Positions 1,047-63,245 of a DNA stretch of 64,000 bases are shown here, in pieces; position 1 is the first letter of the stretch; each line of letters begins with the position of its first letter. The stretch spans positions 2,119,822 to 2,183,821 of the forward strand of contig OW203751.1 in assembly GCA_934045075.1 (NCBI GenBank). The letters are read 5' to 3'. The DNA comes from Yponomeuta sedellus (lineage: Eukaryota > Arthropoda > Insecta > Lepidoptera > Yponomeutidae). The notes under the pieces are model-generated. The model did not search any database. It was not told the DNA's origin and saw nothing but the letters and a program-made list of their open reading frames with translations. Made by a program: the position numbers and the translations under genes.

Positions 1047-1173
1047 GTCCGAACGAGTCTTTATGGTGGCGCGGGAAGCGCGGGTTCCGCGTGGGATTCT
1101 TTCCGCACCACTGTGTGGCCGTCATCGGGGATAAAGTGCCCCGGCACATGACCCAGCCGCCGCCCATTGTCGG
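1047..1173 (+). CDS. CdGAPr: RhoGAP exon 1 of window: C-terminal half of SH3 domain
   Basis: Acceptor ctcag at 1042-1046, donor cgg|gtaagt at 1174. After two bases finishing a split codon it reads PNESLWWRGKRGF, then GFFPHHCV, the hallmark second half of an SH3 domain (WW ligand-groove tryptophans), then VPRHMTQPPPIV. It ends two bases into a codon that exon 2 completes as Gly. The last 24 bases plus the donor are the repeating unit of the downstream 41-bp minisatellite. Confidence 0.9.
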
Positions 1174-4100: not shown

Positions 4101-7100
4101 AGAGAAAGGAATTACTCCGACATGACATTTGAATAAATTTGAAAATGACATCTGTCATAACATTTTTAATATTAGGCAACGGTACCTCCTCATTCCATCG
4201 TATGTGTGACGTCATCACAAAATTTTTGGTTTTTATTTATTTTCTCTAAAATTAGGCAATAATAAAAATTCTAAATATTTTTTTCGTAATCAGGATAGCA
4301 AAATTAAGAAACGTATTTTTAGTTTTGGGCATTGTAAAATATTAATTGTCAATTAGCGGGGGGAAAAGAACCTCAGTCAGAATCGATTGCTGAAGACGCC
4401 AAGTCATTTGACAAGGTTCTTCAGCCAATCCTTTACTATCACAGCTGTCCGCCTGTGGAATGATCTTCCCTTGGACGTAAGATTTTCACCATCCCTGCCA
4501 ATATTTAAGAACAGAGTGCATAACCACTATTTTTCCTTAATGTAAGTTTGTTGTATTTTTGTGAATTCCCTTTCTAGTATTATGTAGGTATACATGTTTT
4601 TTTTGTTTATGTTTTTTTATTATTTTATATTTACGTACTCTATGTATGTGTATCAACTATAAAAAAATATATTGTCTAGTTGCGCCGACTACCCGCATTT
4701 CAGTTTCCGTTTCTTCTTTTCCGTTAATGGTTGTTTGGAAGAAATTACTTTTAATAATAAGGCCGCCACTTGTACTGTACTTTTTTTTTTTAAGTCTCTT
4801 ATGTAATCCCTGGTGTATATACAATTAAGAATATTCAGGGCATTCTAGGCGAGTATCAAGGTGACAGACTCAGGGGGAACATCCTGAATTAGCAAGGGTC
4901 ACAAGATCTTGAAGCAGTACTTCTGGGCGAGCATTCGCGTTCTCAATTTCGAGCACCAAGGTTAGAGGGGGAAAGATCCTTGTGGTAACACAGATTATAC
5001 AAGAACTTGCGTCCCTCTCTCTCTTCTGTTGTTCAGATACTAAGGGTATCTGGGTAATTTAAACAGATCTAATAAACCGTTTTCAGTGTAATTTATTGGT
5101 GTTTTGTTAACTAACCGAATCCTTGACACACTCTAGCGTCCAGTGAAGCCAACTTCAAAGTTGCAACAATCCTGAATTAGCTGCTGGATATAGCCCTCCC
5201 CTAATGAGCGCCACAGCGCCCTGTATTTAGCTCGCCGCATCCCAGATGCTGGATGCGGCGAGCTGCAGTTTTTTGCAGATCGTCATCCCACCTGGTCGGA
5301 GGGCCTAGCAGGTGGGACATACAGGGTTGAAATCGAGTGTTTCCCCCCCAGTGCCGCTGGTTCTGGTGGAGTGCGCGCGGGTGATCGAGGAGCGGGGCGC
5401 GGTGGACGGCATCTACCGGCTGTCTGGCGGCTCGGGGCTCACGCAGCGACTGCGCAGCGCTTTTGATGCGGGGGAGCGGCCCGACCTCAGCGCCGCACCG
5501 GTCGCGCGGGATCCGCACGCGCTGGCCAGCCTGCTCAAGATGTACTTCCGGTGAGTGCTTCGCGAACTTAACGATTGCTAGCTATGCAAAGTTATTTTTT
5601 ATATTGTTTAACATTGACGGCCTCTGTGGCGTAGCGGTAGCGCGTCTGGCCACCGTGCAAGAGGCCCGGGTTCGAATCCCGGCTGGGAACAAAAAAAAAT
5701 CCCAGGTCTTGAATGTTTACATGTTTGTGATGTCGTTGTTTCCGGTTCCCACGACATGAGCGCCATAGCGCCCTGTCTTCAGCTTGCCGCATCCAGCATC
5801 TGCCGGCAGTTTTTCGCAGATCGTCATCCCACCTGGTCGGAGGGCGTCCCTACCCTACGTTTGCCGAGTCGTGTGCTCCACTCAAGAACACGTTTACTCC
5901 AACGGTTATTGGCCAGCCCACTGCCACTTCGGCTCGCAAATTCTCTGAGCTATGTCGAGAGATTACATAATTATTTTAAAACATAGAGCTCGTGCATTGT
6001 ACTGGCTTTAACTCCAGACGTTGTCGCTTGTCCTCACTGAGCTGCCGAACATAAAGCTCGTGCATTGTACTGGCTTTAACTCCAGACGTGGTCGCTTGTC
6101 CCCAGCGAGCTGCCGAACATAGAGCTCGTGCATTGTACTGGCTTTGACTCCAGACGTGGTCGCTTGTCCCCAGCGAGCTGCCGAACATAGAGCTCGTGCA
6201 TTGTACTGGCTTTGACTCCAGACGTGGTCGCTTGTCCCCAGCGAGCTGCCGAACATAGAGCTCGTGCATTGTACTGGCTTTGACTCCAGACGTGGTCGCT
6301 TGTCCCCAGCGAGCTGCCGAACATAGAGCTCGTGCATTGTACTGGCTTTGACTCCAGACGTGGTCGCTTGTCCCCAGCGAGCTGCCGAACATAGAGCTCG
6401 TGCATTGTACTGGCTTTGACTCCAGACGTGGTCGCTTGTCCCCAGCGAGCTGCCGAACATAGAGCTCGTGCATTGTACTGGCTTTGACTCCAGACGTGGT
6501 CGCTTGTCCCCAGCGAGCTGCCGAACATAGAGCTCGTGCATTGTACTGGCTTTGACTCCAGACGTGGTCGCTTGTCCCCAGCGAGCTGCCGAACATAGAG
6601 CTCGTGCATTGTACTGGCTTTGACTCCAGACGTGGTCGCTTGTCCCCAGCGAGCTGCCGAACATAGAGCTCGTGCATTGTACTGGCTTTGACTCCAGACG
6701 TGGTCGCTTGTCCCCAGCGAGCTGCCGAACATAGAGCTCGTGCATTGTACTGGCTTTGACTCCAGACGTGGTCGCTTGTCCCCAGCGAGCTGCCGAACAT
6801 AGAGCTCGTGCATTGTACTGGCTTTGACTCCAGACGTGGTCGCTTGTCCCCAGCGAGCTGCCGAACATAGAGCTCGTGCATTGTACTGGCTTTGACTCCA
6901 GACGTGGTCGCTTGTCCCCAGCGAGCTGCCGAACATAGAGCTCGTGCATTGTACTGGCTTTGACTCCAGACGTGGTCGCTTGTCCCCAGCGAGCTGCCGA
7001 ACCCGCTGTGCACGTACCAGCTGTACGACAGCTTCGTGGCGGCCGTGGCGGCGCGCGGGGACGAGCCGCGGCAGCTGCAGCGGATGCGGGACACCGTCGT

Positions 7101-10100
7101 CAAGCTGCCGCCGCCGCACTACCGGTCAGTGGGGGGGGGGTGACGGGGAGAGGGAGCCACGACGGGGTGAGGGGGCGAGTGTTGATTCAGTGAGAAAGGG
7201 AGTGATTGAGTGTTGATTGAGTCAAGCTGCCGCCACCGCACTACCGGTGAGGGGGGGGGGGGCGAATGTTGATTCAGTGAGACAGGGGGTGATTGAGTGA
7301 TGATTGACTCAAGCTGCCGCCGCCGCACGACCGGTCAGTGGGGGGGGGAGGGGTGACAGTATTCAGTGACAAAGGACGTGTTTGAGTGAGAGATGAGTGT
7401 CAGCGAGAGAGGAGGAGTGAGTGTGTTCATTAGTTAGACAGCTAGAGTGGATGCCAGAGACCGTCGTCAAGCTGCCGCCGCCGCACTACCGGTCAGTGGG
7501 GGGGGGGTGACTGGGGGAGGGTGCTAGTGTTGATTCAGAAGGGGAGTGATTGAGTGTTGACTAAGCCAAGCTGCCGCCGCAGCACTACCGGTCAGTGGGG
7601 GGGGTTGACTTTCAGTGACAAAGGGAGTGACTAAGTGAGAGAGAGAGTGATTCAGTGTTGACTTTCAGTGACAAAGGGAGTGACTGAATGAGAGCGGGAG
7701 TGATTGAATGAAAGAAGGTGGTAGAGAGTGAGAATTAGTGTCCGAGTGTGTTAACTATTAAATTTTTAGTTACTTAGGTATTTAAACAGAGATTGACTGC
7801 AGCATGCGGGAAACCTTCGTCAAGCTGCCGCCGCCGTACTACCGGTCAGTGGGAGGGGTGACTATTGACTCAGTGAGAAAGGGAGTGATTGAGTGAGATA
7901 GAGAGGGAATTATAGAGTGAGTTAGTGAGAGAGGGAGTGAGTGTGATGAGGCTTGACAACTAAAGCTATTGTTGGAAACTAACATCGCCAAATAACTAAA
8001 GTGTATGTGTGAGAATGTTTAGCAACGCAGGGCGCGTCAGTGCATGTATGGGTAAACCGTCTATGACTAACGCTAGTGACATTTTTCTGATCGGTTTCAT
8101 GCTTCGCAAGGCACTTTAGGCAGATGGTGCCGGCTGCCGTCGATAGATGGCAGTCGTTACGCCAATTCCAAGGGTGGCTTGAAAACTTCTGACAATAAGA
8201 CCGGCCACTAGTCTTGCATGCCTCCACCAATCCGGACTTGGCCCCCGTGGTGGAGTATGGCCCATACCTTCCTCCGGGAAGAAAACCGTGCCCCTCGGTT
8301 GGGACATTATTATTATTATTAATACATTATTGCGCAATAAAACCGTACAATGCGGTGAACTTAACGCCATGAGCATGTTCTACCAGTCAACCAACCAAGT
8401 CACAATTAGTTAAGCTAAAAATGTTGTAAGTTAGATTGTTAATTGTTGTTTAAACTTTTCTTTGTTTTTTTTTAATTTAATTAAATGCCTACTTATTTAA
8501 GTAAGGAGAGCTTTTATGGATCCATCTGTAGAAGCAGATCGAGCCATAATTATCTTCGGCTGCGACCGTTCGGAGTGAGGTGTCTGCGATACTTTGCGCT
8601 GAGTGGTCGCATTTGGTTGAATGTGGCTTGATGTGTTTTGGCGCTCGTCCATATTCTAACATGCTGTCATCACACGTTTTAAAGGATTATGTAACTAGAG
8701 ATTATAAATAAAAAATAAAAATAAAAATTCTTTATTTCAGGCATTAAGTACCCATATTATGTTAGTAACAATAGTGACTTAAGACTATATTAGTAACAAT
8801 AATAACAAATTCTAATCAATTCAGATCAATCAAATCAATTATGTACTTATTTTTATTATTATTTTCAATTATTTTTGGTACGTAACTGTACAGAGACTTC
8901 TGTGTCTCTCGGCCCACATTTCGGTGTATCGGCTATCTACCCTGTCCGCTATCATAGTCAGCTTTCGTCATGATGTTTTTACATGTTATGTAACTTATCT
9001 GTTGTGTAATGCTGTAAATGAAATAAAAATAAAAAACCGTAGGACGTGACGGGTTGATGATGATGGCAAGTGATCCTGTGTAAGACTGGTATTCCCGTCG
9101 CAGCACGCTGGCATACCTGATGCGGCACCTGCGCCGCGTGTCGCTACTGGGGGCGCTCACGGGGATGACGGCGCGGAACATGGCCATCGTGTGGGCGCCC
9201 AACCTGCTGCGGGCGCCGCACGCGCAGCACGCGCTGCAGGGAGTGGCGGTACAGGTCAGTGCGCGGGGGCGGTACAGGTCAGTGCGCGGGGGCGGTACAG
9301 GTCAGTGCGCGGGGGCGGTACAGGTCAGTGCGCGGGGGCGGTACAGGTCAGTGCGCGGGGGCGGTACAGGTCAGTGCGCGGGGGCGGTACAGGTCAGTAC
9401 GCGGGAGGGGCGGTACAGGTCAGTGCGCGGGGGCGGTACAGGTCAGTGCGCGGGGGCGGTACAGGTCAGTACGCGGGAGGGGCGGTACAGGTCAGTGCGC
9501 GGGGGCGGTACAGGTCAGTGCGCGGGGGCGGTACAGGTCAGTGCGCGGGGGCGGTACAGGTCAGTACGCGGGAGGGGCGGTACAGGTCAGTGCGCGGGGG
9601 CGGTACAGGTCAGTGCACGGGAGGGTGGTACAGGTCAGTGCGCGGGAGGGTGGTACAGGTCAGTGCGCGGGAGGGTGGTACAGGTCAGTGCGCGGGAGGG
9701 TGGTACAGGTCAGTGCGCGGGAGGGTGGTACAGGTCAGTGCGCGGGAGGGTGGTACAGGTCAGTGCGCGGGAGGGTGGTACAGGTCAGTGCGCGGGAGGG
9801 TGGTACAGGTCAGTGCGCGGGAGGGTGGTACAGGTCAGTGCGCGGGGGGGCGGTACAGGTCAATGCGCGGGGGGCGGTACAGGTCAGTGCGCGGGAGGGC
9901 GGTACAGGTCTGTACGCGGGGGGGCGGTACAGGTCAGTACGCGGGGGGGACGGTACAGGTCAGTGCACGCGCTACAGGGAGTGGCGGTACAGGTCAGTAC
10001 GCGGGAGGGGGCGGTACAGATCAGTACACGTAGCGGGGGGCGGTACAGGTCAGTACGCGAAGGGGGCGGTACAGGTCAGTGCACGCGCTGCAGGGAGTGG

Positions 10101-13100
10101 CGGTACAGGTCAGTACGCGGGGGGGGCGGCGGTACAGGTCAGTGCACGCGCTGCAGGGAGTGGCGGTACAGGTCAGTACGCGGGGGGGGGGGCGGTACAG
10201 GTCAGTGCACGCGCTGCAGGGAGTGGCGGTACAGGTCAGTACGCGGGGGGGGGGGCGGTACAGATCAGTACACGTAGCGGGGGGCGGTACAGATCAGTAC
10301 ACGTAGCGGGGGGCGGTACAGGTCAGTGCACGCGCTACAGGGAGTGGCGGTACAGGTCAGTACGCGGGGAGGGGCGGTACAGGCGCCTTTGCCCCCCGCT
10401 GCGCTCAATCTTCGTCCTCTGATTTGATTTTTAATTTTAGACTAAGTCGGTATCTGTCCAATAATTCAATTCATTCATTGTCAAAACAAAATGTGACCTT
10501 AATGAAAGTCAACGTTGTTAGTTTCACAATTAATAGATTATTATTTGGAGGAAAAAGAAACTAACAAAGAAGCTCCATAAATACAATCTGTCAACCGCAC
10601 AAACCCTCGTTCCCAGGCCGTGGTGACGGAGTTCCTGATCTGCTACGCCGAAGACCTGTTCAGCGGCGAGCAGACCGCCTCGGCCGATGCGGACGGCGGG
10701 GAGCGCCGCCCCGAGCCGGGGGCGGAGCCCCGCGTGCCCTCGGGCCGGCGGCCGACGTCCCTACCCAGGGCCGCGCCCGCGCAGCTGCTCAGGTAAGCCC
10801 CGGGATACGCGGAAGATGCCCATATTGCGTCTGGAGAAGGGAGGGCAAGGTTTGTGGTTCGTCGTTTGAACTGGCTTTCGGCCTCGCGGACAAGGTTTTA
10901 GGGTTATATGGCTTGAACGAAGATCGGCTTTCAGCCTCGCGGACAAGGTTTTAGGGTTATATGGCTTGAACGAATATCGGCTTTCGGCCTCGCGGACAAG
11001 GTTTTAGGGTTATATGGCTTGAACGAAGATCGGCTTTCGGCCTCGCGGACAACATTTTAGGGTTCTATGGCTTGAACGAAGATCGGCTCTCGGCCTCTCG
11101 GATTAGGTTTTAGGGATATGCGGCACTAAATAAGCTTCGCGAAAATTTTTGGACCACTTAATTTCTTTTCGGTAATTTATTTTGTCGCAAAAGTGTCTCT
11201 GTTAACTTTCCAACTGAGGGGACGAAATTCAAGGGGAAGAAATTTAGAACTGGGATTAACTATTGCCTTGATTGAGTGATTATGGCACTTCATTTTCTCA
11301 TCCAACGCGTATGTAATTGCGGGCACAGCTAGTGAATATTATTTTCAATAGAGTACCCGGCGTGCGTGCATTCAACGAATAATGAGCGTCGATGAAGCGA
11401 AGGTGATCTGTCAGGATTGTATCAAGTGGCAGTCCCTGGTCTCTGCCTACCCCTCTGGTATACAGGCGTGAGGTCATGCTATGTAATGTTTACACTACAC
11501 TATACACTATCAACCCTCGTATGTCCCCACTGCTGGAGCACGGGTCTCTTCCTGCATCGCAGGAAGGTTAGGCCATACTCCACCACTGGGGCCAAGTCCG
11601 GGTTGGTCCACTACCATTGTTACTGGCGTAAACACACGAAAGTGTCAAAGTAGTTAGAGAAAGTGTTAGAGTAGTTAAAGAATGGAACAAACTCCCTGAA
11701 GAAATAGTGACAGCCACAAGCATTAATATGTTTAAAAACAAACTGGATAAATATCTAAAGGAAACAAAACAGACAAGGAGTTAAACACAAATGTACATCT
11801 GGATACAGGCTTCACCAGTTCTATAACTGCCTGCCTGAATTACAAATAATTATAATAATAATAATTGAGCCAATGGGCGACTCTCGAGGTTGCAGGTTCG
11901 AATCCCGGCATGGGTGAAATTTTTAGCGTCTAAATAGGTTTTAAATTTGTCCTTAGCACCGGTTAGTGCATTAAAAATAAAAATAGTATAACGTTTTTAT
12001 TGTGCAATAAAGTGTGATTACATTCGCTCCAGCCGTTTCGACCTGAAGAAGTAACGCAACAGACATACACACCCACAATCTTTCGCCTTTGTAATATTAG
12101 TGTGGTGATTCGCCTTCAGCCTGGAGGAGGCGCGGCGGCGCGGGCGCGGCCACAACCCGCCAGCCACCTCGTCCCCCGCCAGCCTGCCGCCGCCATCCGG
12201 CGCCATCGCCGCCGCCGCCGGCGCGCAGCTGCGGCCATCCGGCCACCTGCGCCCACAGTACATCGAGGTCAGTTGGCCCCCACACCTGGCACCTGCGCCC
12301 ACAGTACATCGAGGTCAGTTGGCCCCCACACCTGGCACCTGCGCCCACAGTACATCGAGGTCAGTTGGCCCCCACACCTGGCACCTGCGCCCACAGTACA
12401 TCGAGGTCAGTTGGCCCCCACACCTGGCACCTGCGCCCACAGTACATCGAGGTCAGTTGGCCCCCACACCTGGCACCTGCGCCCACAGTACATCGAGGTC
12501 AGTTGGCCCCCACACCTGGCACCTGCGCCCACAGTACATCGAGGTCAGTTGGCCCCCACACCTGGCACCTGCGCCCACAGTACATCGAGGTCAGTTGGCC
12601 CCCACACCTGGCACCTGCGCCCACAGTACATCGAGGTCAGTTGGCCCCCACACCTGGCACCACAACTTGCAACAAGTCGTCGTCGTGAGATTAAATTTTG
12701 CCCCACACTGGGCAAAATTTAATCTAACTACTAACTACGATTACATAAAGTAGTTGATAATCACGATTACAAACTAAATGAAGTAATCAGAATAAGTAGT
12801 TAAACATTTTTTAATATAGTTGAGCCATATCATAGTTTTGCTGTATGCACGTTAATTTTTATTTTAATTACGGAACAAATACTTTGCTGTGATACATTTA
12901 AGTTCAACCCGAATGGAGAACTGTGCCCCAAGATACAATTTAATTTAGTTTGGGGTTCAGAGTTACTTGATACATTGTTATGTTTTATTCTGCTCAATAA
13001 ACATTTTTCATTTCATTTTCATTTCATTTTCATTTTGATTACTAACTGCAAATTGTAGTTGCAATCACGCCGTTTATAACTACATTTCTAAATAAACTTG

Positions 13101-33860: not shown

Positions 33861-33861
33861 G

Positions 33862-37070: not shown

Positions 37071-37074
37071 TGAT

Positions 37075-44318: not shown

Positions 44319-44321
44319 TTA

Positions 44322-48181: not shown

Positions 48182-48599
48182 ACATTACAAATATTCTTCT
48201 TTTGAGATTAGAACAAAAATTGTTCTGATATCGCTCACCAGATTAACGTAAGCCCTTTGGGCTCTTACTAATAAACACCGTTTAAGCCTGGTATAGTTAC
48301 AGTGTTTTGTTCACGTCAAGAAAAGAGACAAAACAATGCATAGTTATACAAATACTTACGCCAAGTTTATTACGAAGGCTGTTAAGGTTTATTTAAAAAA
48401 AAAACACTTTCTATTAAAACACTCTTCGAATGCAGTTTTAATAGTCTGTGGTAGAGGCAAAGACCAGATTAAACTACTTTTGAAGTGTGTTTTAAGAAAC
48501 CGTGTCGTTATAAGACTGAATCTTTCCCAATAGGCGTTCTACCAGAGAATAACTTTAACTCCTCGAACAAAATCAAAATGTTTGAAACATCTAATGATT

Positions 48600-49025: not shown

Positions 49026-49230
49026 AGAACCCTAGTAACTTGTTATTGAAGATGGCTCACATATTTCAGTACTCCCGAATGGTAATAGTTTCTTGATATC
49101 TTCCTTTCCGCTTGATTTGATGGAATGCGAGGTTATTTTAACGGCTCGAATCCGATTTTCAGATTACGGGTATACCTGTAACAAGTAATAAGCATGTCAA
49201 TATCCCTGGTCTGGATCGTCTGTCTTGGCT

Positions 49231-49845
49231 TTAAGGTGTCGTGTCTCACCACCGGTCAGTCACGATTCTCACCTGCGGTCAATCAAGGACTTCATCTCCC
49301 ATCGTGCCAGGAAGAGACCAGTCCCTTGTGTTAAAAGGTCTGGTCCGGCTCTCTTGTCTTTTAGGTTCATAGACTTACCTGCGGTCAGCGGCGGTCAGTC
49401 GCGAGTCTCACCTGCGGTCAGCGTCGGTTAGTTGCAAGTCTCACCTGCGGTCAGTCGCGAGTCTCACCCGCTGTTAGTCTCGAGTCTCACCCGCTGTTAG
49501 TCGCGAGTCTCACCCGCTGTCAGTCGCGAGTCTCACCTGCGGTCAGTCGCGAGTCTCACCTGCGGTCAGTCGCGAGTCTCACCTGCGGTCAGTTTCAGTT
49601 AGTCGCGAGTCTCACCTGCGGTCAGTCGCGGGTCTCACCTGCGGTCAGTCGCGGGTCTCACCTGCGGTCAGTCGCGAGTCTCACCTGCGGTCAGTTTCGG
49701 TTAGTCACGAGTCTCACCTGCGGTCAGTCGCGAGTCTCACCTGCGGTCAGTTTCGGTTAGTCGCGGGTCTCACCTGCGGTCAGTTTCGGTTAGTCGCGAG
49801 TCTCACCTGCGGTCAGTCGCGAGGTCCCCCCCCTCGGTCAGTCGC
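49231..49845 (-). repeat. 23-bp minisatellite at the Wee1 3' end carrying cag|gtgaga
   Basis: On the minus strand the unit is accgcag|gtgagactcgc; about 19 units, period 23 with 33-bp variants. The first bases, gcgactga, match the end of Wee1 exon 10 including its stop codon. A break at about 49285-49385 holds unrelated sequence. Confidence 0.88.
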
Positions 49846-49982
49846 GGCGGCGTCGCGCGGCGCGCGGCTGCGGCGACTTGGCCGCATCGTCGCGCGGCTT
49901 CTGCAGCGCGCGCCGCGCCGACCGCGTGCGGCACTTTGCCGACTCGCTCTGCACGAGGCCCGGCGTTAGAGACTTTATGCAT
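49838..49982 (-). CDS. wee1: Wee1 exon 10: basic C-terminus and stop
   Basis: Acceptor ccctctctgcttggcag ends at 49983. Phase fits exon 9; reads CIKSLTPGLVQSESAKCRTR, then SARRALQKP and a final Arg-rich end, stop tga at 49838-49840. The stop lies at the edge of a 23-bp minisatellite whose units carry cag|gtgaga on this strand. Assignment rests on phase, the polypyrimidine tract and position, as the sequence itself is weakly conserved. Confidence 0.75.
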
Positions 49983-52900: not shown

Positions 52901-55900
52901 GAATACCGGCATAGGTGGAATTTTTAGACTCTAAATAGGTTTTTAAAATAAGGGGATATACGAGCATTTGGTGATTTTTTTCGACGTGTTTTTTCTTGCG
53001 CTACTATGTAAACGGTATACATAGAAATGACAAAATGAAGTCTTGATAAGTAATATTTAAATTAAAAAAATAGTTTTTCTTGTTACTTCACAGGAGTACT
53101 GACCTTCAAGAGCTGATTGAACTCCCTAGACAGGTTGGGAAGGTCTGGCAACTTGCTAGAGCGATAATCGTGCCACAGCTGCCCATTTTTGGGCAGGGGA
53201 CCGCCGCCGCCCGCCTCGAAAAGGGTTAGCCCTGCGAACGGTACATTGGTTTCGTCAGACAACTCAGGTACAAGTGTTAGTAAAACAATAGATTCTTTTA
53301 AAAACCTATTTAGAGGCTAAAAAATCCACCCATGCAGGGATTCGTACCCGCCACATCTGGCTATACGTGCCAGCGGTTTTTTTCCAACTGAGCTAATGGG
53401 CGACTCACCGGCATCAGTGAAATTTCGAACCTCTTTACAATATTCTTACGTAATACGTAATAGATTATTTGACAGTGCGAAAAATAAACATGCATAACCT
53501 CACGCCTGTATACCCAGAGGGGTATCTATGCCTACCCCTCCGGGTAGGCAGAGACCAGGGACTGCCACTTGCCACGATCCTGACAGATCACCTTCGCTTC
53601 TTCAACGTTCATAAGTCGTTGCATGCACGCACGCCGGTTCCGGGTACTCTTTATCTTTCCCTTTGCTAATACATCCCCTATTTGGTCGATGTATGTTCGC
53701 CTGGGACGTCCCTTACCAGCCCTTCCACTCACATTCGCAATATATATTTGTTTTGTCAATCTTCATCCTCTCCAGATGTCCAAACCAACGTAACAAAGTA
53801 TTCATCAAATTAAAGCGAAAAATTAAGTACTAATTATATTGTATCAATTATGAGTTTTAAAACCGCTTTAAAGCATTTTAACTGAAAAAAAAGTGGATCA
53901 TTTCTGCAAAAGACAGGACAAAACTTGATAATTTTGTATCTGTAGAAATTTTATCAAAAACGATCAGGATTGGTCGAATCTATAATGACGTTCGGAAGAG
54001 CTCGTGGCCTAGCCAAACCGAGTGATTGGAATCAATCACTTGTGTTAAGCAACAACAGGCGCGGTCAGGTGCAGGATGGGTGAACTTGTCTACGATAAAG
54101 AATATTTTATCTTCTATCTATCTATGTCAAATTCAAATTCAAATCAATTTATTTCAACGTAAAGAATTTACATTCTGTTTGCTGAATGTCAATGTACAAT
54201 GTAAAATGTAAGCCGCTGCCTTCGGGCCGTATTGTAGTGGAGAAAAAGGCAGCGGAAAAAAAAAACTCCACTCTAACCAAATACATCAGTTGCCATTATG
54301 TAAACCTAATAAGATTTCATGATTGCCATTAACAACCCTAAATGCCAAAGCATTAGTCAAATGTCTCACAATAATAGGGGAAAACATAAGTGCTGCGGCC
54401 AGACACACGGACAGCACTAGTTCACGAGCATAACGCAGTGCTCAGCCATCATCAGTCTCAACCATTTTGGAGGGAGATAGATGACCCGAACACCACGCTA
54501 CCATTCGAATGACCTTTAGCAACATTCCCTGTTAATCTAGAGTGTAATTATTCCTGTCTCAACCAAAGCCGTACATTGGTAAATCTCAATAATTTGAGAT
54601 TTAGGCAATTTTTTTTTTTTTAATAAAGGGTTTTACGGCCCTGGATCCGTGTCCTTTTGAGCCTTGAGTATTGTATTAGTTTTTTATAGTATTAGTTATA
54701 AATTTCCGCAAAAAATGGGCGTTTTTAGCGAAAATCGTTTTAAGTTTTCAGATAAGAGCACTTATCACTTCCGTATCACTTCACTATAATGTTCAGTTTT
54801 TCCAGTCACTTTAAATTTTTATTCCACTGTTCATAATGAATTTATATAAGGGGGCGAAAAAGGTAGGATTGCTAAGTAGATTTGGAGATTTAGGCAACCT
54901 GGTAATTTTTTTTTTTGCGCCACCATGACACCCCTGTCAGTTTAATGTCATGTGATGTACTGGGGGGTCGTTAGTGGGGAGGTTAAGCTTAATATGTATG
55001 TTGTTGATTGTCACCTGTTTTTACACACTAAATAAAGTAAAATATAAGTCGGTCAGGCACAGGATGGGTGAGCGTCCCGTGACTACCGCTCTAGTGGCAT
55101 TTTTCCGAGCGCCTCCGTGCTTCGCAAGGCACGTTAAGCCGTTGGTGCCGGCTGTCATGTAATGGCAGTCGTTAAGCCATTTAAATATTACTTCCTTAAA
55201 AAAAAAATTATGGGAGGCTTGTTAACTTCTGATAGTAAGGCCGGCTTTATGGGAGGCTTGTAAACTTCTGATAGTAAGGCCGGCTTTATGGGAGGCTTGT
55301 TAACTTCTGATAGTAAGGCCGGCTTTATGGGAGGCTTGATAACTTCTGATAGTAAGGCCGGCTTTATGGGAGGCTTGATAACTTCTGATAGTAAGGCCGG
55401 CTTTATGGGAGGCTTGATAACTTCTGATAGTAAGGCCGGCTTTATGGGAGGCTTGATAACTTCTGATAGTAAGGCCCGCCACCGTCTTACTATCCTCCAC
55501 CATATGAAATATCCATGTATTTTCATTACGAATGAAAACTCTTATAAAACAAGTTATGATTTTATTCCATTAGTGACGCTAGTTAGCACCCCAAAGCGCC
55601 TTAAGCCCGGATTTACAGCAACACCTAGGGCCTATATCATCGTTATCATACTCTTGTATGTCCCCACTGCCAGGGCCACCACTCCACCACCAAGTCCCCG
55701 GATTTGGCCCCCGTGGTGGAGTATGGCCTAGCCTTCCTGCGATGCAGGAAGAGACTCGTGCCCCAGCAGTGGGGACATACAAGGGTTGATAATGAGTGGT
55801 GCATAATTTTAGATTTTTTAAAAACCTATTTAGAGGCTAAAAATTTCACCCATGCCGGGATTCGAACCCGCAACCTCTGGCTATCCGTGCCAGCGCTCTA

Positions 55901-58900
55901 CCAATTGAGCCAATGGGCGACTCACGGCATCAGCGAAATTTCGAACCCCTTTACACTATTCTCTGTATTACGTACAGGCAGCGACATCTGACTTAAGCAA
56001 ATTGCATTACTTACAGCACCGACTACCCACTTTGCAGTTAGGTTTAACATCGGAACGATATTACTGTTACATGATTATACTATTTTTATTTTTAATGCAC
56101 TAACCCGTGCTAAGGAACAAATTTAAAAACTAAAATTTATTTAGGTTTTTTGCCATTTGGTATTTCAAATGTAAGTTTTTTTTTTTATACCAAACGAAAG
56201 TAAAATATTCTCACCGAAGGCGAAGATGTCGGCCTTGGTCAAGTGGGAGACGTCTTCCTGGAGCACCTCCTTGGGCAGGTACCGGCAGTCGCCCTCCTCC
56301 ACTTGCGGCGAAGACAGACACGTCACGTGGCCGAGGTCGCCTGCAGTCAACCATTGATATTGTTAGAGAACAAAATAGCACAAACTATTGGCTTATTCAA
56401 ATAAACTACATTTGAATGGTATAAAAGGCTCAAGATAACATATTTTAAACTTTCGCGACTTGTACACATAGTTATAATATTTTCGGGGCAGTCTTCTCGT
56501 TACCACGATGGCTGTAACGTCGTCGTCGAATTACTACACGATTAAGCCCCGAAAATATTCTAACTAGGCTCAAGATAGTTTATGTGAATTTGAGAAGTGT
56601 TTTAGAGGAATTCTCTCTCTCTCACAAACACACACACATACACCCTCACACGCACGCACACGCTTCACGTCCATGTCTTCTTTCATTTCCTTTGTTCGTT
56701 TGTTCCTCTTTCTTCATTCCTCCCTCCCCCCTTCCTTCCTTCTTTCCTTCCTTCCTTCATTTCTTCCTTCCTTCCTTCCTTCCTTCCTTCCTTCCTTCCT
56801 TCCTTCCTTCCTTCCTTCCTTCCTTCCTTCCTTCCTTCCTTCCTTCCTTCCTTCCTTCCTTCCTTCCTTCCTTCCTTCCTTCCTTCCTTCCTTCCTTCCT
56901 TCCTTCCTTCCTTCCTTCCTTCCTTCCTTCCTTCCTCCCTCCCTCCCTCCCTCCCTCCCTCCCTCCCTCCCTCCCTCCCTCCCTCCCTCCCTCCCTCCCT
57001 CCCTCCCTCCCTCCCTCCCTCCCTCCCTTCCTTCCTTCCTTCCCTACCTCTCTCCCTAAATCCTCCATCCCTTCCTTCATGTTTTCCTTCCATCCTTCCT
57101 CGTCCGTCCACTCACCGATCTTGTACTTGTGGTGGTCGCGCGCGGCGGGCTCGTCGTCGTCGTAGCCGTCGTCGGAGTCGTGCCCGCCCCCCTCCGCCCC
57201 GCAGACGAACACGTTGCCGGGCTTCACGTCCATGTGCGCCAGCTGCAGCGAGTGGATGTACCTGCCGGGTCAGGTGTGGACGTCGTTTGTGATGTCATAT
57301 AGCTATTAATCCACATAAATAAAATTCAAAGTCCTGACTAACTCTATCATCAACGCCCAGCCCAAGCCGTTGGACCTAGGAAGCTGAAATTTTGCACTGA
57401 CGTCTATATATCATGTAGGCAAGGAATAAGACCGGATTTTTTGAAATTAAACCACTAAGAGGGCGATATAAACAATGTTGTCTAATGTTCTTGAAACTTA
57501 AAATAAATACTCTTCAACACAATTGATTAAACACGTGTTTCGCCGTTTTTTTTTTATTTAACCCTTAAGGCAGGGGTTGCAAAATTTTGTATCTACTAAT
57601 GTTAGGTACGTTTGTCAACTTATCGTAGCAATACCATTCGCTAACGACGAAGGAAAACATCGTGAGGAAAACCTAGTGTCTGAAGTGTTAATACACCTCA
57701 GCGCTTGCTACGTACAATGGCCCAACTATGGGGCTAATGCGGAAAATGTCAGGTCTAATTAACTACGCCTCTTATTAAATAAAATAACATACTAATAATA
57801 AATTATGATTAAGATTAGATACTAATTAAGAGTTAAGATTAGATACTAATAATGAATTATTAAGATTAGATTGGTATTTAATACTAGACATAAAAATAAA
57901 CTGTAATTTCTACGATTTAGACTTGCAAAAGTTATGTAATCCTTTGTGTGGCACTGTGTAACTGTATGAAGTTCCACAGCCAGATTCCTCAAGATATATA
58001 CGCGGTTTGACAAATGTCTTAAGATCCATCCGAGCATAAAAGCTCCATCATCATCATCAACCGATTATGTCCCCATCGATGGGCACGGGTCTTTTCCCTG
58101 AGGAAGGTATAGGTATACTCCACCACGGGGGCCAAGTCCGGATAAGTAGAGGGTTGCAAGACGTGGCTGGTCTTACTGTCAGAAGTTTTCAAGCCGCCCT
58201 AAGGCCTCTGACTTGGCTTAACGACTGCCATCTATCGACGGCAGCCGGCACCAACTGCTTAACGTGCCTTGCGAAGCACGGAACCGCTCGGAAAAACGCC
58301 ACTAGCGATAGTCATAGAAGGTTACCCACCCATGCACTAAACGCGCCCTATATTGCTTAACCTTCGCGATCGTTTAAGATCACTTAGGTAGCCGGGACTG
58401 CCAGCGATTCAAATAGCCTGTTAGTTGGTTTTTATTAAAAGTAGGAAAACACTAATGTTGCGGCCGGACTCGATAAATGAACTCACGCCAACCCGTCGGC
58501 CACGTGCGCAAGCAGGAGTAGCAGTTCGCTCTCCGGGAGAGGTCCCCGCGCGTCCAGCATCTGCTGCAGGGAGCCGCCGTCGCAGTACTCGTTCTGGATT
58601 ATCATGTGGTCGTCTTCCGCCCACGCCGAGTAGTATCTGAGGGGTGATGCAATAATTCAATTAATTTCAACGTAAAGAATTTACATTCTGTTCGCTGAAT
58701 GCCAATGTACAATGTAAGCCGCTGCCTTCGGACCGTATAGTAGTGGAGAAAAAGGTAGCGGAAAAAAAACTCCCCTCTGACATCTTTTCTCAATTATATT
58801 CACTTTAATGCACTAACCCGTGTTAAGGACAATTTTAAAAACATATTTAGAGGCTAAAAATTCCACCCATTCCGGGACTCGAGCCCGCAACCTCTGGCTG

Positions 58901-61900
58901 TCCGTGCCAGCACTCTTTCCAACTGAGCTAATGGCCAGCCAGAGGTCGCGAGTTCGAATTCCGGTATTTGTGGAAATTTTAGCCTCTAAAGAGGTTTTTA
59001 AAATTGTCCTTAGCACGGGTTAGTGCATTGAAAAAAAAAGAGTATAGTTATTCGTGATGTCCTATTTTTAGCACGCCAGGGCTTAGGAGGATACGTAGAT
59101 CCAGAGCCCAATTTTGTGACCACGTCTGTGGAGACATGGTCACAAAATTGGGCTCACATTTGGCTCGCTTATGACATCTTCACATTTTAATTTTCATTTC
59201 GCCGCCAGCTATCAGCCATGAACTTCTCATCGGGATGACGGCCTCGGCGGCGCAGCGGTTTGGCGCGCTGCTGTAAAACCGAAGGTCTCGGGTTCGATCC
59301 CCGGCCAGGACAAACAAGGAAACGAACTTTTCTAGTTAGTCTCGGGTCTTGGATGTTATCTATTATTATTATTATTTATATATTTATTCCTATTCCTATA
59401 CCCGGGGGATAGTCCCTCGTCTGCGCAGACCTTACAGCTGATTAAAGCCCGGCATACACGGCAACGATAAAACTGCGCAAACGAACTGTGCAGTTCATTT
59501 GCGCATCTTATCGAACGTAGGTAGTGCGTCCACATATCTACGTCGATCGTCAGTTCCCAGCAGAAACTTCAGACAGACGAAATACACGTCATTCGCGATG
59601 GAAAACGATGAAGTGCTTGCGCTAGTCTGACTTATTTACACCAACCCTTCCGAAATAACTGAATGATTGGCCCGACTTCCGTATACACACTACGATAAAT
59701 GGAATGATCTGCCCGTGGAAGTGAGAAAAGCAAAGTCCTTGGCTTGTTTTAAGGCACTGGTGAAATCCCACTATCTCACTGGATAAACTGGAAAACTGTT
59801 GCTTATATGTATTAATTGTATAAGTATTTATTTTTAGGTGTTTATGTATATTATTATTTCAGTATATGTTGCTTACCTATATGTATTTATTTTTTAGGTG
59901 TCTATGTATGTATATTATTATTTAAATATATGTACATTATATCGTAGGTAATTATAAGTAATTATATTCTCGCACTCCCTTGCTGTTTGTTATCAATATA
60001 TTTTCGATTTAATTATTTAAGTACATGCACCACGTACTGACTATATTCTTCATGCAATCCACTCCATCCAAAGGTTGTCTGGAAGAGATCGCTCTAAGAA
60101 TCATGGTTGTAATATTTTTCTGGTTGTGCAATAAAGTGTTCTCTATCTATCTAAAACTGTGCAAACGCGATCGACAACGATTTATCGAACAGATTTTGAA
60201 CCTTGCCCCGATGGCTTGCACCAACCAAAAAAACTGCACCGATTTTTGTCCACACGTTCGATGAAACTGCGCAAATGAACTGTGCAGTTCGTTTGTGCAG
60301 TTTTATCGTTGCCGTGTATACCGGCCATTACTCACCTGACGACATGCGCATGCTTCCCGAGCGCCGCGTGCGCATAAACCTCCGTGAGCGCGGCCCGTTC
60401 GGCGGCCGAGCCGGCCACGGGCCGCAGCGACCGCTTCACGGCGTACACGCAGCCGTCGAGCCGGTTCAGGCACTTGCTGACCCGCCCGAACTGGCCCGTC
60501 CCGATCACGCCCAAATCCACGAACTCCACGTTGTACCGGGATATGTTCGACTCCTGCGGGTTGCGAGGGTTGCGTTTTAGGACCGGGGGTGTTGCGAAAC
60601 GGGACCTTATTTAGGTACTCGAATGTTGCGATTTTTAATGTTAGTATTTTCTAAGGTTAACACGAGTACAAGACATAATTAAAACTGAAAACCTATTTAG
60701 AGGCTAAAAATTTCACCCATGCCGGGATTCGAACCCGCAACCTCTGGCTATCCGTGCCAGCGCTCTACCAATTGAGCTCAATTGGTAGAGCACTGGCACG
60801 GATAGCCAGCGGTTGCGGGTTCGAATCCCGGCATGGGTGAAATTTTTAGCCTCTAAATAGGTTTTTAATTTGTCCTTAGCACTGGTTAGTGCATTAAAAA
60901 TAAAAATAGTATAATACAGGTACATACATTGCTTCTGGCCCCACACAAGGATACCCTGCCCTTATTTGATATCGATATCTTATCTTATTTAAGTCGGTGA
61001 AACTCACCCTCAACCGCTTGGCGGGCTGCTCGGGCGTCGCGTCCCACCCGCAGACCGGCGTTTTGGACAACGCGCGCTTTTTCTTGTTGAGGGCTTGCCC
61101 TGAAACGTTTAGTTGAGATTTACTTTCAAACATGGTAGGAAACTGCTAGGTAAGCAAGATGGTCTGCTGAAAGTACGCACTGAGTGTTGCTGCCGTATTT
61201 TTCGTTTGGTGTTTAATAAGTTACATTTTTACATACAGGCACATACATTGCTTCTGGCCCCACACTAGGATGCCCTGTGTCGTAGGAACCAGAAACAGCG
61301 ACATCACAAACATGTAAACATCCAAGACCTGGGTTTTTTTTTTGTTGTTCCCAGCCGGGATTCGAACCCGGGACCTCTTGCATGGTAGGCAGACGCGCTA
61401 CCGCTACGCCACAGAGGTCGTCAAATGCTCAGAAAGTGATATTTTTTCAATCTACCGTGTTTCTCTCGCACTGCAGTTACTAAGACGGTATTGGGACATG
61501 AAAAGTGGGACTGCACTGCGTACCTAGTCACTATTAGAGACGGATCCATTGATCTGGAATCTTTCATAATTTGCGCGAATTTTCATTATTTTACAGGACA
61601 GGAGTGTCAGAAGTGGGATCCAATGACTGATCATAGAAAGTAAATGAAAGAAAGTTCATTTTAGCCTACGTTCACGTTAGCCATGCTAGCCGCAGGTGGG
61701 CAGCCGAGCGCGCTAGTAATATTGCTCTTGCATTACATTTTGCCAAAAAGTACTGTGATATCAGAAGTGGGATCCAACGACGCACCATCAGGCGTAAAAG
61801 GGTTGGTATTAGCCGAGGCTCGGCGTGGCTCACCCGGCTCGTCGAGAGAAAGAGTGTCGAGCGCGCTAGCAAAATTGCTCTAGCATAGCACTTTGCAAAA

Positions 61901-63245
61901 AAATACTGGGATATCAGAAGTGGGATCCAACGACTCACCATCGGGCGTAAAAGGGTTGATATTAGCGGAGGCTCGGCGTGGCTCGTCCGGCTCCTCGGGA
62001 GGCAGGCTGCCGAGAGCGCTGTCATCCGCCGGAGGGTGTAGGTGGTGGCTCGAGCCCGACACTTGGCCTGCGGGGAGGAAAAGTGGCGTGAGGAGAGCTG
62101 TGGGATTGTTTACACCAGCGCCTGTACAGGCGTTTACAGTCTTTGTTAGTCAGTACTGACATTTCCGCACTTAGCCTCATATTAACCTCATATCATACAT
62201 GAGTAAATGTACAAGGGCGTGCTTAATGGAAGGAAGAATGGAAGAAGCATTCTCCTCCAGCAAACCTTTGGTGTTGAAGAGACTGGCAAAGGGCAGTGCA
62301 GGAAAAGAAGGTGGAATACAATAATAAACTTTACATAAACATAGGGAAATACATTAAGTTAAACCTACAGGGGACCTATGATCACGATTAATTACATATC
62401 AGATTAGTTGGGCCATTGTAGGTACGTAGCACGCGCTGAGGTACGTACAATGGCCCAATCATGAGGCTAAGTGCGGAAATCTCAGGTCTAACTAACTAAG
62501 CGCTGAGGTACATTAACAATTCAGGCACTAGGGTGTACTCATGTTTGCATTCACGGTTAGCGAGTGGTATTCCTACTATAATTTGACAAATTTACATAGC
62601 TCAGAACAACACAAAGTCATTAGTACAGCGAGTTGAACCCACGACACCCAATTGAGAAGCCGGTTCTTTGGGTGAAAATTAAGAAAGTTATAGAATATAT
62701 GACGTCCTAAATATGGGACGCCTGGACGAGCTGTCATTTAATGGCGGCTCGGTAACTTCTGACAGTAAGGGCCGCCTCTGTCTTACAACCCTCCACCAAC
62801 CCGGACTAAAATTTTGCAAATTTTGCACACAGGGTCTATCTATATATAATGTAGGCAAGGAACAAGACCGGATTTTTTGAAATTCAACCCCTAAGGGGGC
62901 GAAAAGGATTGCCAAAATTTGTATGGGAAGTATGAAGAATGTTGTCTAATTTTCTTGAAACTTAAAATCTTCAACACAATTGATTGAACACGTGTTTCGC
63001 CGCTTTTTAAGCGCGTGACGGGTTAAGGGAGTGAACGGGGTTGCAAAAAAAGTTCACGCGGACGGAGTCGCGGGCAAAAACTAGTCATCATCACAAAGGA
63101 CTCCAGGTATTAGGAGGTGAATACGACTGACTCACCGACTGGCGCGCAGTCCTTTGGCGGGAAGAGCCTGGAGCGCGGCGCGTGGTGTGTGGGCGTGGAG
63201 CACTTTTCTAGAAGGGTCTTCGGTGTGTGCGGACTGTCGAAGAGT
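49838..63245 (-). CDS. wee1: Wee1 kinase (10 coding exons, 5' partial)
   Basis: Wee1 is the nuclear kinase that delays mitosis by phosphorylating Cdk1 on the inhibitory tyrosine. The spliced minus-strand exons give 469 residues plus stop with all phases consistent. Seen: LFDSPHTPKT and NINPFTPDG in the N-terminal region, PAKRLR, glycine loop GTGQFG (128-133), catalytic Lys in VYAVKRS (150), EVYAHAALGKHAHVVRYYSAW, YCDGGSL, catalytic loop HMDVKPGN (Asp244; Met in place of the usual HRD Arg, as is normal for Wee1), GDLGHVT in place of DFG, EEGDCRYLPKEVLQ, KADIFAFG, DPDPTQRPSA, and a basic helical tail KLKNELLERKLQEAA. Myt1 is excluded by the Wee1-type HMD loop, the NPFTPD motif and the lack of a membrane segment. 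The N-terminus lies beyond the right edge. Confidence 0.95.
50091..50605 (-). mobile_element. Two tandem antisense SINE-A copies plus a sense scrap
   Basis: Copies at 50091-50392 (full) and 50393-50566, then sense catgggtggaacttttagcc to 50605. Lies in the Wee1 intron between exons 10 and 9. Confidence 0.85.
50608..51213 (+). mobile_element. Element H interrupted by nested SINEs
   Basis: Element H halves at 50608-50768 and 51166-51213 flank SINE-G (50769-51165), which is itself split by an antisense SINE-A (50907-51040). Confidence 0.88.
50769..51165 (+). mobile_element. SINE-G copy split by SINE-A
   Basis: tRNA-like head tcggtggcgcagcggtttgg with box B gggttcgatccccggcc; 3' part from ctatgtatttattgtttt. 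Second copy at 59236-59390. tctatgtatttatt on both sides of the SINE-A is the target duplication. Confidence 0.87.
51442..51608 (-). CDS. wee1: Wee1 exon 9: end of kinase domain and coiled tail
   Basis: Acceptor ccccaacag above 51608, donor gcgag|gtgagt at 51441. Reads KMVDPDPTQRPSAARLRKHP, then LRRELAAAKLKNELLERKL and QEAA. DPDP.RPSA is the last kinase helix motif; the Leu/Lys-rich tail resembles the helical Wee1 C-terminus. Confidence 0.94.
51640..52075 (+). mobile_element. LINE ORF2 C-terminal fragment and tail
   Basis: Reads LSNCLVPAIYKSLPEELCNK then AQFKNMLKRFLL and stop: the polymerase C-terminus type with LP..L and FK..LK. Preceded by ttctttattgtacacc. Confidence 0.72.
52087..52288 (+). 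mobile_element. SINE-B full copy
   Basis: Head tctgtggcgtagcggtagcg, box B gggttcgaatcccggc, 3' end gtatgtgcttgtatg. Confidence 0.88.
52519..52795 (+). mobile_element. SINE-F intact copy
   Basis: tRNA-like head gtagctgagcggtgtag, box B gtgggttcgaaccccgg, body with aattatagtagcaatacc uninterrupted. Confidence 0.87.
52825..52952. mobile_element. SINE-A short palindrome
   Basis: Antisense 3' end to ctaaggacaatttt, then sense from ggcacggatagccagagg to the 3' end. Confidence 0.82.
53104..53231 (-). CDS. wee1: Wee1 exon 8: kinase C-lobe
   Basis: Acceptor gttcgcag above 53231, donor tgaag|gtcagt at 53103. Reads LTLFEAGGGGPLPKNGQLWH, then LPDLPNLSREFNQLLK, matching the PLPRNGDQWHEIR..LP.IP..LS.EF..LLK block of human WEE1. 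Confidence 0.93.
53296..53455 (-). mobile_element. SINE-A antisense copy near Wee1 exon 8
   Basis: Starts about 65 bases upstream of the exon 8 acceptor in transcript sense; head diverged (ttcgtacccgcc). Confidence 0.8.
53495..53840 (-). mobile_element. LINE ORF2 C-terminal fragment, longest copy
   Basis: In minus: RWFGHLERMKIDK, then after a frameshift KGRPRRTYIDQIGDVLAKG and EEAKVICQDRGKWQSLVSAY. RW.GH..RM...GRP...D is diagnostic for the end of non-LTR polymerase ORFs. Confidence 0.82.
54000..54088 (+). mobile_element. SINE-C head fragment
   Basis: cgtggcctagccaaaccgag to the 5S-like caggcgcggtcaggtgcagg and gatgggtg. Confidence 0.75.
54120..54282 (-). mobile_element. Family D element
   Basis: Antisense; gtttgctgaatgtcaatg and gtaagccgctgccttcgg. 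Confidence 0.77.
55050..55500 (+). mobile_element. SINE-C with internal 39-bp satellite
   Basis: Starts in the 5S-like part (ggcacaggatgggtgagcg); within the body the segment gggaggcttg..aaggccggctttat is repeated seven times (55212-55484), then body resumes cccgccaccgtcttac. Confidence 0.88.
55655..55795 (+). mobile_element. SINE-C 3' fragment
   Basis: cccgtggtggagtatggcc to cagtggggacatacaagg; an inverted scrap (gtatgtccccactgcc) precedes it. Confidence 0.78.
55812..56132 (-). mobile_element. SINE-A antisense full copy
   Basis: Head, 5' region to gttaggtttaacatcgg, then a second antisense 3' end tactatttttatttttaat to 56132. Confidence 0.85.
56215..56340 (-). CDS. wee1: Wee1 exon 7: activation segment
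   Basis: Acceptor gactgcag above 56340, donor cttcg|gtgaga at 56214. Reads DLGHVTCLSSPQVEEGDCRY, then LPKEVLQED and LTKADIFAFG. DLG replaces DFG, and the EEGD..YL..EVL block is the Wee1 activation segment that selects the Cdk1 substrate. Confidence 0.96.
56435..56574 (-). mobile_element. MITE (ttttcggggc), copy 3
   Basis: Inverted ends aatattttcggggc / gccccgaaaatatt flank the core acgtcgtcgtcg. In a Wee1 intron. Confidence 0.75.
56615..57050. repeat. Microsatellite tract: (CA)n, (TTCC)n, (CCCT)n
   Basis: CA-rich start 56618-56665; then mainly ttcc units 56725-56935, ccct units 56936-57026 and ttcc again. On the Wee1 coding strand this is (GGAA)n/(GGGA)n, purine-only for about 300 bases. 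It lies in the intron after exon 6. Confidence 0.97.
57116..57261 (-). CDS. wee1: Wee1 exon 6: catalytic loop
   Basis: Acceptor cccggcag above 57261, donor gatcg|gtgagt at 57115. Reads YIHSLQLAHMDVKPGNVFV, then an acidic Gly/Asp insert and KYKIG. The HMDVKPGN loop carries catalytic Asp and Asn. A long (GGAA)n/(GGGA)n tract, read on the coding strand, starts about 65 bases past the donor. Confidence 0.96.
57340..57560 (+). mobile_element. Helitron-like or MITE repeat, copy 1
   Basis: Shares atgtaggcaaggaataagac, ccggattttttgaaatt and cacgtgtttcgccg with 62810-63090, where it ends cgcgggcaaaaactagt, a sequence type common at lepidopteran Helitron ends. Class by memory only. Confidence 0.55.
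57595..57770 (+). mobile_element. SINE-F 3' part
   Basis: tagcaataccattcgc to gaaaatgtcaggtcta; head lost. Confidence 0.75.
58053..58385 (-). mobile_element. SINE-C, diverged subfamily
   Basis: Antisense full-length copy with cgacggcagccggcacc; like 7985-8315. Ends about 100 bases from the Wee1 exon 5 donor. Confidence 0.8.
58487..58636 (-). CDS. wee1: Wee1 exon 5: hinge region
   Basis: Acceptor cccctcag above 58636, donor ttggc|gtgagt at 58486. Reads YYSAWAEDDHMIIQNEYCDG and GSLQQMLDARG: the SAWAEDDHM..QNEYC.GGSL signature of Wee1 hinge and helix D. Shorter helix D segment than in human WEE1. Confidence 0.95.
58650..58782 (-). mobile_element. Family D element
   Basis: Antisense; ttaatttcaacgtaaagaat and gtagtggagaaaaaggtagc. 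Begins about 15 bases upstream of the Wee1 exon 5 acceptor region in transcript sense. Confidence 0.77.
58799..59048. mobile_element. SINE-A palindrome
   Basis: Antisense 3' end to gagctaatggcc, then sense ccagaggtcgcgagttcg to the 3' end; both outer ends are SINE 3' ends. Confidence 0.87.
59236..59395 (+). mobile_element. SINE-G copy
   Basis: Head tcggcggcgcagcggtttgg, box B gggttcgatccccggcc, then gaacttttctagttagtctc. Confidence 0.83.
59449..60326. mobile_element. TIR element ending beside the Wee1 exon 4 donor
   Basis: Ends ggcatacacggcaacgataa / ttatcgttgccgtgtatacc with aaactgcgcaaa(c/t)gaactg on both sides. A LINE 3' end (59690-60150, WNDLPVEVRKAKSLACFKA) is inserted inside. The right end lies about ten bases from the exon 4 donor. 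Confidence 0.82.
59690..60165 (+). mobile_element. Non-LTR retrotransposon 3' end inside the TIR element
   Basis: Reads KWNDLPVEVRKAKSLACFKA then LVKSHYLTG and stop; tail with ggttgtctggaagagatcgc as in 4375-4835, ending caataaagtgttctctatc. Confidence 0.78.
60336..60553 (-). CDS. wee1: Wee1 exon 4: kinase N-lobe
   Basis: Acceptor acccgcag above 60553, donor gtcag|gtgagt at 60335. Contains SRYNVEFVDLGVIGTGQFG, CVYAVKRSLRPVAGS and LTEVYAHAALGKHAHVV: glycine loop, VAIK-type Lys and the Wee1-specific helix C (EVYAHA). A TIR element ends about ten bases beyond the donor. Confidence 0.97.
60688..60914. mobile_element. SINE-A perfect palindrome in a Wee1 intron
   Basis: Arms of about 90 bp: aacctatttagaggc ... 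accaattgag / ctcaattggt ... gcctctaaataggtt, centre at 60780 with no loop (caattgagctcaattg). It occupies half of the 454-bp intron between exons 4 and 3. Confidence 0.92.
61008..61099 (-). CDS. wee1: Wee1 exon 3: linker before the kinase domain
   Basis: Acceptor gtttcag above 61099, donor ttgagg|gtgagt at 61007. Reads QALNKKKRALSKTPVCGWD, then PEQPAKRLR, the PAKR block preceding the kinase domain in Wee1. Basic KKKRALSK could act in nuclear import (inference). Confidence 0.88.
61226..61424 (-). mobile_element. SINE-B full copy
   Basis: Antisense, from acatacaggcacatacattg to the head ctaccgctacgccacagagg. A fragment of the same family is at 60917-60957. Confidence 0.87.
61686..61945 (-). 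repeat. 153-bp duplication of the Wee1 exon 2 end and donor
   Basis: The segment with gggcgtaaaaggg (exon) and the donor region recurs at an offset of 153 bp; a third partial copy lies at 61686-61770 (gccaaaaagtactg). In the duplicate the donor reads gtgcgt where the gene has gtgagt. Confidence 0.88.
61939..62067 (-). CDS. wee1: Wee1 exon 2: NPFTPD motif
   Basis: Acceptor cccgcag above 62067, donor gatg|gtgagt at 61938. Reads QVSGSSHHLHPPADDSALG, then RRASANINPFTPDG; NINPFTPD is strongly conserved in Wee1. The 3' part of the exon with its donor is duplicated just downstream (61770-61870). Confidence 0.92.
62200..62685 (-). mobile_element. Dispersed repeat and diverged SINE-F
   Basis: 62200-62310 is the inverse of 27640-27760. 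62420-62680 is antisense SINE-F with gtggtattcctactataat, cacaaagtcattagtac and head remnant cccaattgagaagccgg. Confidence 0.72.
62725..62812 (+). mobile_element. SINE-C middle fragment
   Basis: gagctgtcatttaatggc to caccaacccggact, directly followed by the Helitron-like repeat. Confidence 0.7.
62810..63092 (+). mobile_element. Helitron-like or MITE repeat, copy 2
   Basis: As 57340-57560; ends tcgcgggcaaaaactagtca about 40 bases from the Wee1 exon 1 donor. Confidence 0.58.
63136..63245 (-). CDS. wee1: Wee1 exon 1 of window: N-terminal regulatory region
   Basis: Minus-strand acceptor tttccag just above 63245 and donor tcg|gtgagt at 63135. Reads LFDSPHTPKTLLEK, then SRLFPPKDCAPV. The SPHTPKT core resembles the Cdk-type phosphosite region conserved in animal Wee1 proteins. 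Confidence 0.88.

Follow-up and report, generated by a model that had tools for sequence, protein, structure and literature searches.

In what follows, the window is the whole stretch of 64,000 nucleotides of Yponomeuta sedellus that was analysed, and it belongs to an assembly of 657.5 Mb in 57 contigs. It carries two genes. The first one, on the forward strand (1047..26212), is a CdGAPr gene encoding a RhoGAP with an SH3 domain, whose best matches are found in Cydia, Ostrinia and Papilio, and 13 of its coding exons were annotated in the window (R1 to R13). The second one, on the reverse strand (49838..62067), is the Wee1 kinase gene, with nine annotated coding exons (W1 to W9) and with highest-ranking named matches in Lepidoptera. 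The exon limits of both genes were set from the sequence together with orthologues and homology, and the joined R1 to R8 frame of CdGAPr reads through. The original prediction had placed ten arrays of tandem repeats at the coding-exon borders of these genes; its RhoGAP exons 1, 4, 5, 7, 8, 10 and 11 are our R1, R4, R5, R7, R8, R10 and R11, and its Wee1 'exon 2' is W1. Nine of these arrays are confirmed, and the tenth, at Wee1 'exon 10', is set aside, as it starts at the stop codon.

The arrays claimed earlier are listed by TRF, and the units that we inspected contain both the end of the exon and its splice site. As was also predicted, the first unit of the donor arrays is the true exon end, which keeps the reading frame, and the array runs from there into the intron. 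All the arrays of CdGAPr are on the forward strand. At the donor of R1 (exon 1047-1173), a 41-bp unit that joins the last 29 exon bases to GTAAGTCTGAGA is repeated 14.6 times (1145..1739). The R5 array (9239..10383; exon 9104-9254) is built from a unit of 23-26 bp in about 42 copies, with GCGGTACAG on the exon side of the border and GTCAGTGCGC on the intron side, and the R7 array (12244..12661; exon 12120-12267) contains 9.1 copies of a 46-bp unit that are 100% alike. The repeats at R8 (14861..15720; exon 14699-14890) have a degenerate unit of about 209 bp, and those at R11 (19524..21060; exon 19476-19579) have a 383-bp unit whose later copies are degenerate. The R10 array (18590..18976; exon 18490-18619) consists of 9.9 copies of a 39-bp unit, which form an open frame of 13 codons each (EEDDPPPHTQVRT), so that later donors, if they were used, would add in-frame repeats to the protein. 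Exon R4 (6990-7124) is affected at both ends: upstream, an acceptor array (5980..7002) repeats 15 times a 68-bp unit that ends in TCCCCAG followed by the first 13 exon bases, and downstream (7125..7860) five copies of the donor junction, CACTACCG followed across the border by GTCAGTG, are found at +122, +209, +367, +466 and +720, scattered rather than arranged in a single clean tandem array.

In Wee1, the donor repeat of W1 (61699..62020, reverse strand; exon 61939-62067, ending in ..NINPFTPDG) has a 153-bp unit in 2.1 copies. The array at the other end of the gene (49377..49847, reverse strand; last exon 49838-49981) has a 23-bp unit with a CAG/GTGAG motif. It was set aside as a splice-junction array and left out of the counts: it begins where the last exon ends in its TGA stop, and the best copy of a junction there reaches an E of 0.2. 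The Wee1 C-terminus reads ..PRAARRRRD* here, and it reads ..DRRTDRRKKV or similar in several orthologues.

To count junction copies in a uniform manner, each of the 43 junctions of the window (21 donors and 22 acceptors) was used as a 65-base BLAST query made of 45 exon and 20 intron bases, and a copy was retained if it spanned the junction, lay within 3 kb and had an E below 1e-3. Under these settings, same-strand copies are found at 9 of the 21 donors (R1, R2, R4, R5, R7, R8, R10, R11 and W1) and at one acceptor out of 22 (R4), and opposite-strand copies at none of the 43 junctions. A symmetric query (35 + 35) gives identical counts, with every copy on the intron side; with the asymmetric one, 5 of the 47 matches of R5 are centred upstream, and we take them as register-shifted matches at the array start. 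The R2 donor (exon 2280-2458), which was absent from the earlier list, owes its place to a lone decayed copy located 2.5 kb downstream in the intron (4925..4985, forward strand; E 2.8e-4), and it gives two matches with the symmetric query. The two ends of the R2 exon are themselves alike in 13 of 14 bases, CAGGTCAGTGGCGG at the acceptor and exon start (2277-2290) and AAGGTCAGTGGCGG at the donor (2456-2469), a likeness that may reflect an old duplication linking them. Beyond 3 kb, no junction query has a strong match in the window (E of 0.02 or weaker). The junction queries thus share no element, so that a single transposon or introner family is rejected and the arrays are, as predicted, unrelated in sequence.

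We then considered how often such overlaps would be expected by chance. If one unit per array is placed randomly, 0.97 junction overlaps are expected on average, and the observed value, 8 of 28 arrays, was reached in none of 20000 trials. If whole arrays are placed, the mean rises to 3.8 and P is 0.02; when the placement is limited to arrays with 4.5 copies or more (5 of 11 at junctions), P is 0.06. The one-unit model corresponds to an array that expands from a single duplicated unit. Chance is rejected from these simulations, with the whole-array result being the weaker one. The noncoding background cuts the other way, as the DNA is repeat-rich by the same criterion: among 1500 random noncoding 65-mers taken from the window, 320 have a nearby copy on the same strand and 156 have one on the opposite strand. 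Among the 320, 156 fall in ten 1-kb bins where junction arrays lie (1, 6, 7, 9, 10, 12, 15, 18, 19 and 20 kb), and the remaining 164 are about as numerous as the opposite-strand ones. Queries from exon interiors have a near copy in 3 of 569 cases in the window, versus 19 of 191 in the block of the PWP2 gene described below.

Outside the window, two samples were examined junction by junction. The PWP2 gene comes from contig C1, where it lies within a 50-kb block; it is the only gene annotated in this way in a 200-kb sample made up of 18 stretches on contigs C1-C4 and two beside the window. Its frames join in the part of the gene examined. Two of its 16 donors have copies, as does one of its 15 acceptors, a rate that is biased upward because the gene was picked after TRF had revealed arrays in the block. 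The background of this block is 164 of 1500 noncoding 65-mers with a near same-strand copy and 182 with an opposite-strand one. In locus L014, a pyrimidine-rich tandem repeat (4238-4444) ends near a PWP2 exon acceptor with no evident exon bases, and we class it as an intron-only repeat adjoining an acceptor. The second sample consists of twelve internal kinase exons, hand-picked at intervals along 137 Pkinase places with their sequence unseen beforehand; one of the 12 donors has copies within about 600 bases, and none of the 12 acceptors does. Together, these samples give 3 of 28 donors and 1 of 27 acceptors, so array-bearing donors are denser in the window (9/21 vs 3/28, p = 0.017). When all the samples are pooled, 12 of 49 donors carry copies versus 2 of 49 acceptors (Fisher p = 0.007, unchanged with the symmetric query), and all of the 119 copies are on the intron side. 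Both types of border are therefore affected, the two acceptors being R4 and p13 of PWP2.

At the scale of the 657.5-Mb genome, we looked for triplets of the donor 8-mer CAGGTGAG separated by gaps of 12-42 bases, the control being the same letters written backwards. This gave 447 matches versus 16 for the control. Taken singly, the two 8-mers are about equally common (3 and 4 occurrences in the 200-kb sample). Triplet matches overlap inside arrays, so match totals are not array totals: the 16 control matches sit in four arrays, and GGTGAGTGGAC occurs in three of these, so that they look donor-like as well. Twelve distinct arrays are present among the 100 of the 447 CAGGTGAG matches that were listed, and we examined the 5' flanks of all twelve, including L059, for which the retrieved sequence began within the array. 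Eleven of these twelve arrays start where an open frame ends, in most cases a GC3-rich one, and nine have an exon homologue, namely INTS9 (5e-45), DUF2045 (2e-21), PI3Ka (2e-17), a TRIM67/TRIM9 domain (9e-15), BLTP1 (6e-11), spectrin (5e-11), WD40 (3e-8), CHD5 (4e-6) and, as a weak match under the Pfam cut-off, Nup54 (1e-4), whose exon gave no match in a PDB search. Two others, L056 and L062, have open frames for which the homology search returned no match. With a second motif, CAGGTAAG, the raw matches show no genome-wide excess (79 vs 79 for the control); they are found in nine arrays, and those of the control are all on one strand. The predicted genome-wide excess of splice-spanning arrays is thus borne out for the first motif and not, in raw counts, for the second. 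Junction arrays in PWP2, in a kinase exon and in the genome-wide CAGGTGAG set lead us to reject a purely local oddity of the window. On contig C2, two different donor-motif arrays (19861016-19861682 and 19865239-19865870) lie on the same strand 4 kb apart, and they are perhaps at two exons of one gene.

Similar duplications can be seen in the annotated proteins of other Lepidoptera. Internal duplications are present in 8 of 32 lepidopteran CdGAPr and Wee1 records, versus 2 of 205 non-lepidopteran or unnamed ones, where identity is low, and a stricter cut gives 7 of 32 versus 0 of 205; many of the 205 comparison records are unnamed, and the Wee1 records P0141, P0147 and P0149 are in neither group. 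Several of the lepidopteran tandem duplications fall at exon borders. In Cydia fagiglandana, the CdGAPr exon equivalent to R1 is repeated as well, with a different unit of 50 residues, which suggests that amplification is recurrent; the Wee1 exon W1 is repeated in Cydia amplana, and the end of W8 in Plutella and Helicoverpa. Four annotated Wee1 proteins (P0121, P0122, P0142, P0163), from Helicoverpa, Plutella, Cydia amplana and Operophtera, contain peptides duplicated in tandem close to exon borders or right at them. Such duplicated peptides are possibly mis-annotated introns, or real repeats due to arrays of this kind, and they are a warning that gene models can be in error, since duplicated exon ends do occur in annotated lepidopteran proteins. 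For PWP2, no internal repeat was found in 43 lepidopteran records.

Repeats of this kind have precedents. In the human interferon-induced gene IFI6 (6-16), donor-like units of 12 bp stand in tandem at an exon end; the moth arrays would resemble this arrangement, with the difference that IFI6 is one gene. Its minisatellite reportedly gives rise to multiple splice donor sites (NAR, 1995). Zhuo 2007, Rogers 1989 and Gao and Lynch 2009 are said to have derived introns from tandem arrays or from tandem genomic duplication of AGGT. In one account of intron gain by tandem duplication, a segment with splice signals is duplicated (PMC2891723). There, a duplication inside coding sequence leads to a new intron, whereas in the moth it is junctions already present that are multiplied, with no change in the position of the intron. 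The closest relatives are the mirages of amphioxus, described in two papers (PMC3087553, PMC3902484) as minisatellite-like tandem duplications across exon-intron boundaries, at both 5' and 3' borders, in the genes Adh3, BflGb6 and BflGb9 (globins) and PGBD5; their units are 10-160 bp, many contain splice signals, and splicing is reported to be undisturbed. Mirages of the amphioxus type are also polymorphic in copy number and somatically unstable. The moth arrays are like them in that the units span the boundary, the authentic junction is beside the exon, the copies are in the intron, and donor as well as acceptor borders are affected in several unrelated genes. This is therefore not a new kind of phenomenon, and the earlier suggestion that systematic expansion at existing junctions had gone undescribed is not supported. 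The amphioxus cases concern several lancelet genes, whereas in the moth, studied in one assembly, 11 of the 12 donor-motif arrays sampled sit at exon ends, donors are favoured over acceptors, and an array can have up to about 42 copies. No earlier report of junction arrays in Lepidoptera was found in the open-licence literature searched, and within that literature the lepidopteran lineage, the scale and the donor bias are new.

We favor, with a probability of roughly 0.7, the view that these are 'mirage' minisatellites, in which a junction-spanning duplication was expanded into the intron by minisatellite turnover and was tolerated as long as a correct junction remained. A short tandem duplication, probably produced by slippage or microhomology repair between the exon end and the proximal intron, would capture the end of a coding exon together with the adjacent intron and its splice site; the duplicated unit would then expand into the intron through ordinary minisatellite turnover, by unequal exchange or slippage. 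Such arrays would survive because the copy adjacent to the exon still yields the correct junction, which would make the duplication harmless. At donors, the correct copy is transcribed first and could be recognised ahead of the spares; at acceptors, the wrong copy is transcribed first, and arrays would be purged more often, which would account for the donor bias. The frame-keeping copy adjoins the exon, the arrays extend into the intron on the coding strand, they recur in the genome with unrelated sequences, and donors exceed acceptors; the use of the first donor is predicted from reading frame and orthology. Donors may also mutate at a raised rate, which the mirage explanation does not require. 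Of the drivers evoked in the original prediction, either a process particular to junctions, at R-loops or paused polymerase, or selective tolerance may be at work.

A bolder version would make of active 5' splice sites a hot spot throughout lepidopteran genomes, where co-transcriptional breakage or slippage keeps spawning donor minisatellites. The copies would be retained as working spare donors, and introns would grow from their donor end as the junction copies itself; we regard it as a tentative possibility. Its mutational part can be considered separately, and we find it rather unlikely that a process acting at active 5' splice sites (R-loops, U1 or polymerase pausing, reverse-transcribed splicing intermediates) seeds the duplications. 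The donor bias, which exists although both borders touch the same GC-rich exon, is expected under such a process, and junction seeds far exceed random unit placement; selection against acceptor arrays, however, predicts the bias equally well. The copies themselves bear on this too. In the ten donor arrays pooled, mismatches to the real junction affect 34 of 891 core positions (3.8%), whereas the exon side has 219 in 2076 and the intron side 113 in 1347. The donor core is thus better preserved overall and not in every array, since in three of the ten (R11, p10 and W1) it is no better preserved than its flanks. This is suggestive only, because the sites are non-independent and the copies were found by similarity, and the preservation may stem from the use of the copies or from alignment effects rather than from a mutational process.

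Base composition offers another explanation, which we consider unlikely, namely that GC-rich exon ends are prone to form minisatellites and that splice sites are incidental passengers. Across the window and PWP2, the last 30 exon bases are indeed GC-richer at array-bearing donors (0.65, n=11) than at the others (0.56, n=26; p = 0.04), and the junction arrays of the window are 54-74% GC. Yet the acceptor ends of the same exons rarely bear arrays, and both array-bearing donors of PWP2 are only 50-53% GC. It is quite improbable, in turn, that the arrays were selected as spare donors conferring splicing robustness or variation in protein length. This could explain why the GT is kept in 92 of 96 copies in an ungapped scan, as well as the preserved core of the pooled arrays, the open codons of R10 and the fact that some lepidopteran gene models read through duplicated exon ends. 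However, the copies were gathered by similarity, which favours intact ones, and most units of the window have lengths that are not multiples of three (41, 68, 23-26, 46, 209 and 383, versus 39, 153 and the 141 of PWP2), so that internal donors would usually shift the frame. Finally, the P of whole-array placement and the high noncoding background could be invoked for an assembly error, or for common tandem repeats that overlap exons by chance. This is very improbable given the 57-contig assembly, the variant patterns among units, the unrelated listed arrays at exon ends (11/12) and the similar duplications in the annotated proteins of other species.

If the mirage explanation is valid throughout the annotated genome, a defined sequence context, the donor junction, could be linked to the origin of minisatellites. 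Models of intron growth and of intron gain by tandem duplication would become testable in an order with many sequenced genomes, and the arrays would provide a natural experiment in which the spliceosome has to choose a single donor from as many as about 40 that are nearly identical. The window also contains minisatellites that are noncoding and in which the junction test finds no exon sequence (10873-11119, 15847-16074, 19105-19300, 22884-23198 and 55208-55476); several of them are near array-bearing exons, and they can be used as controls.
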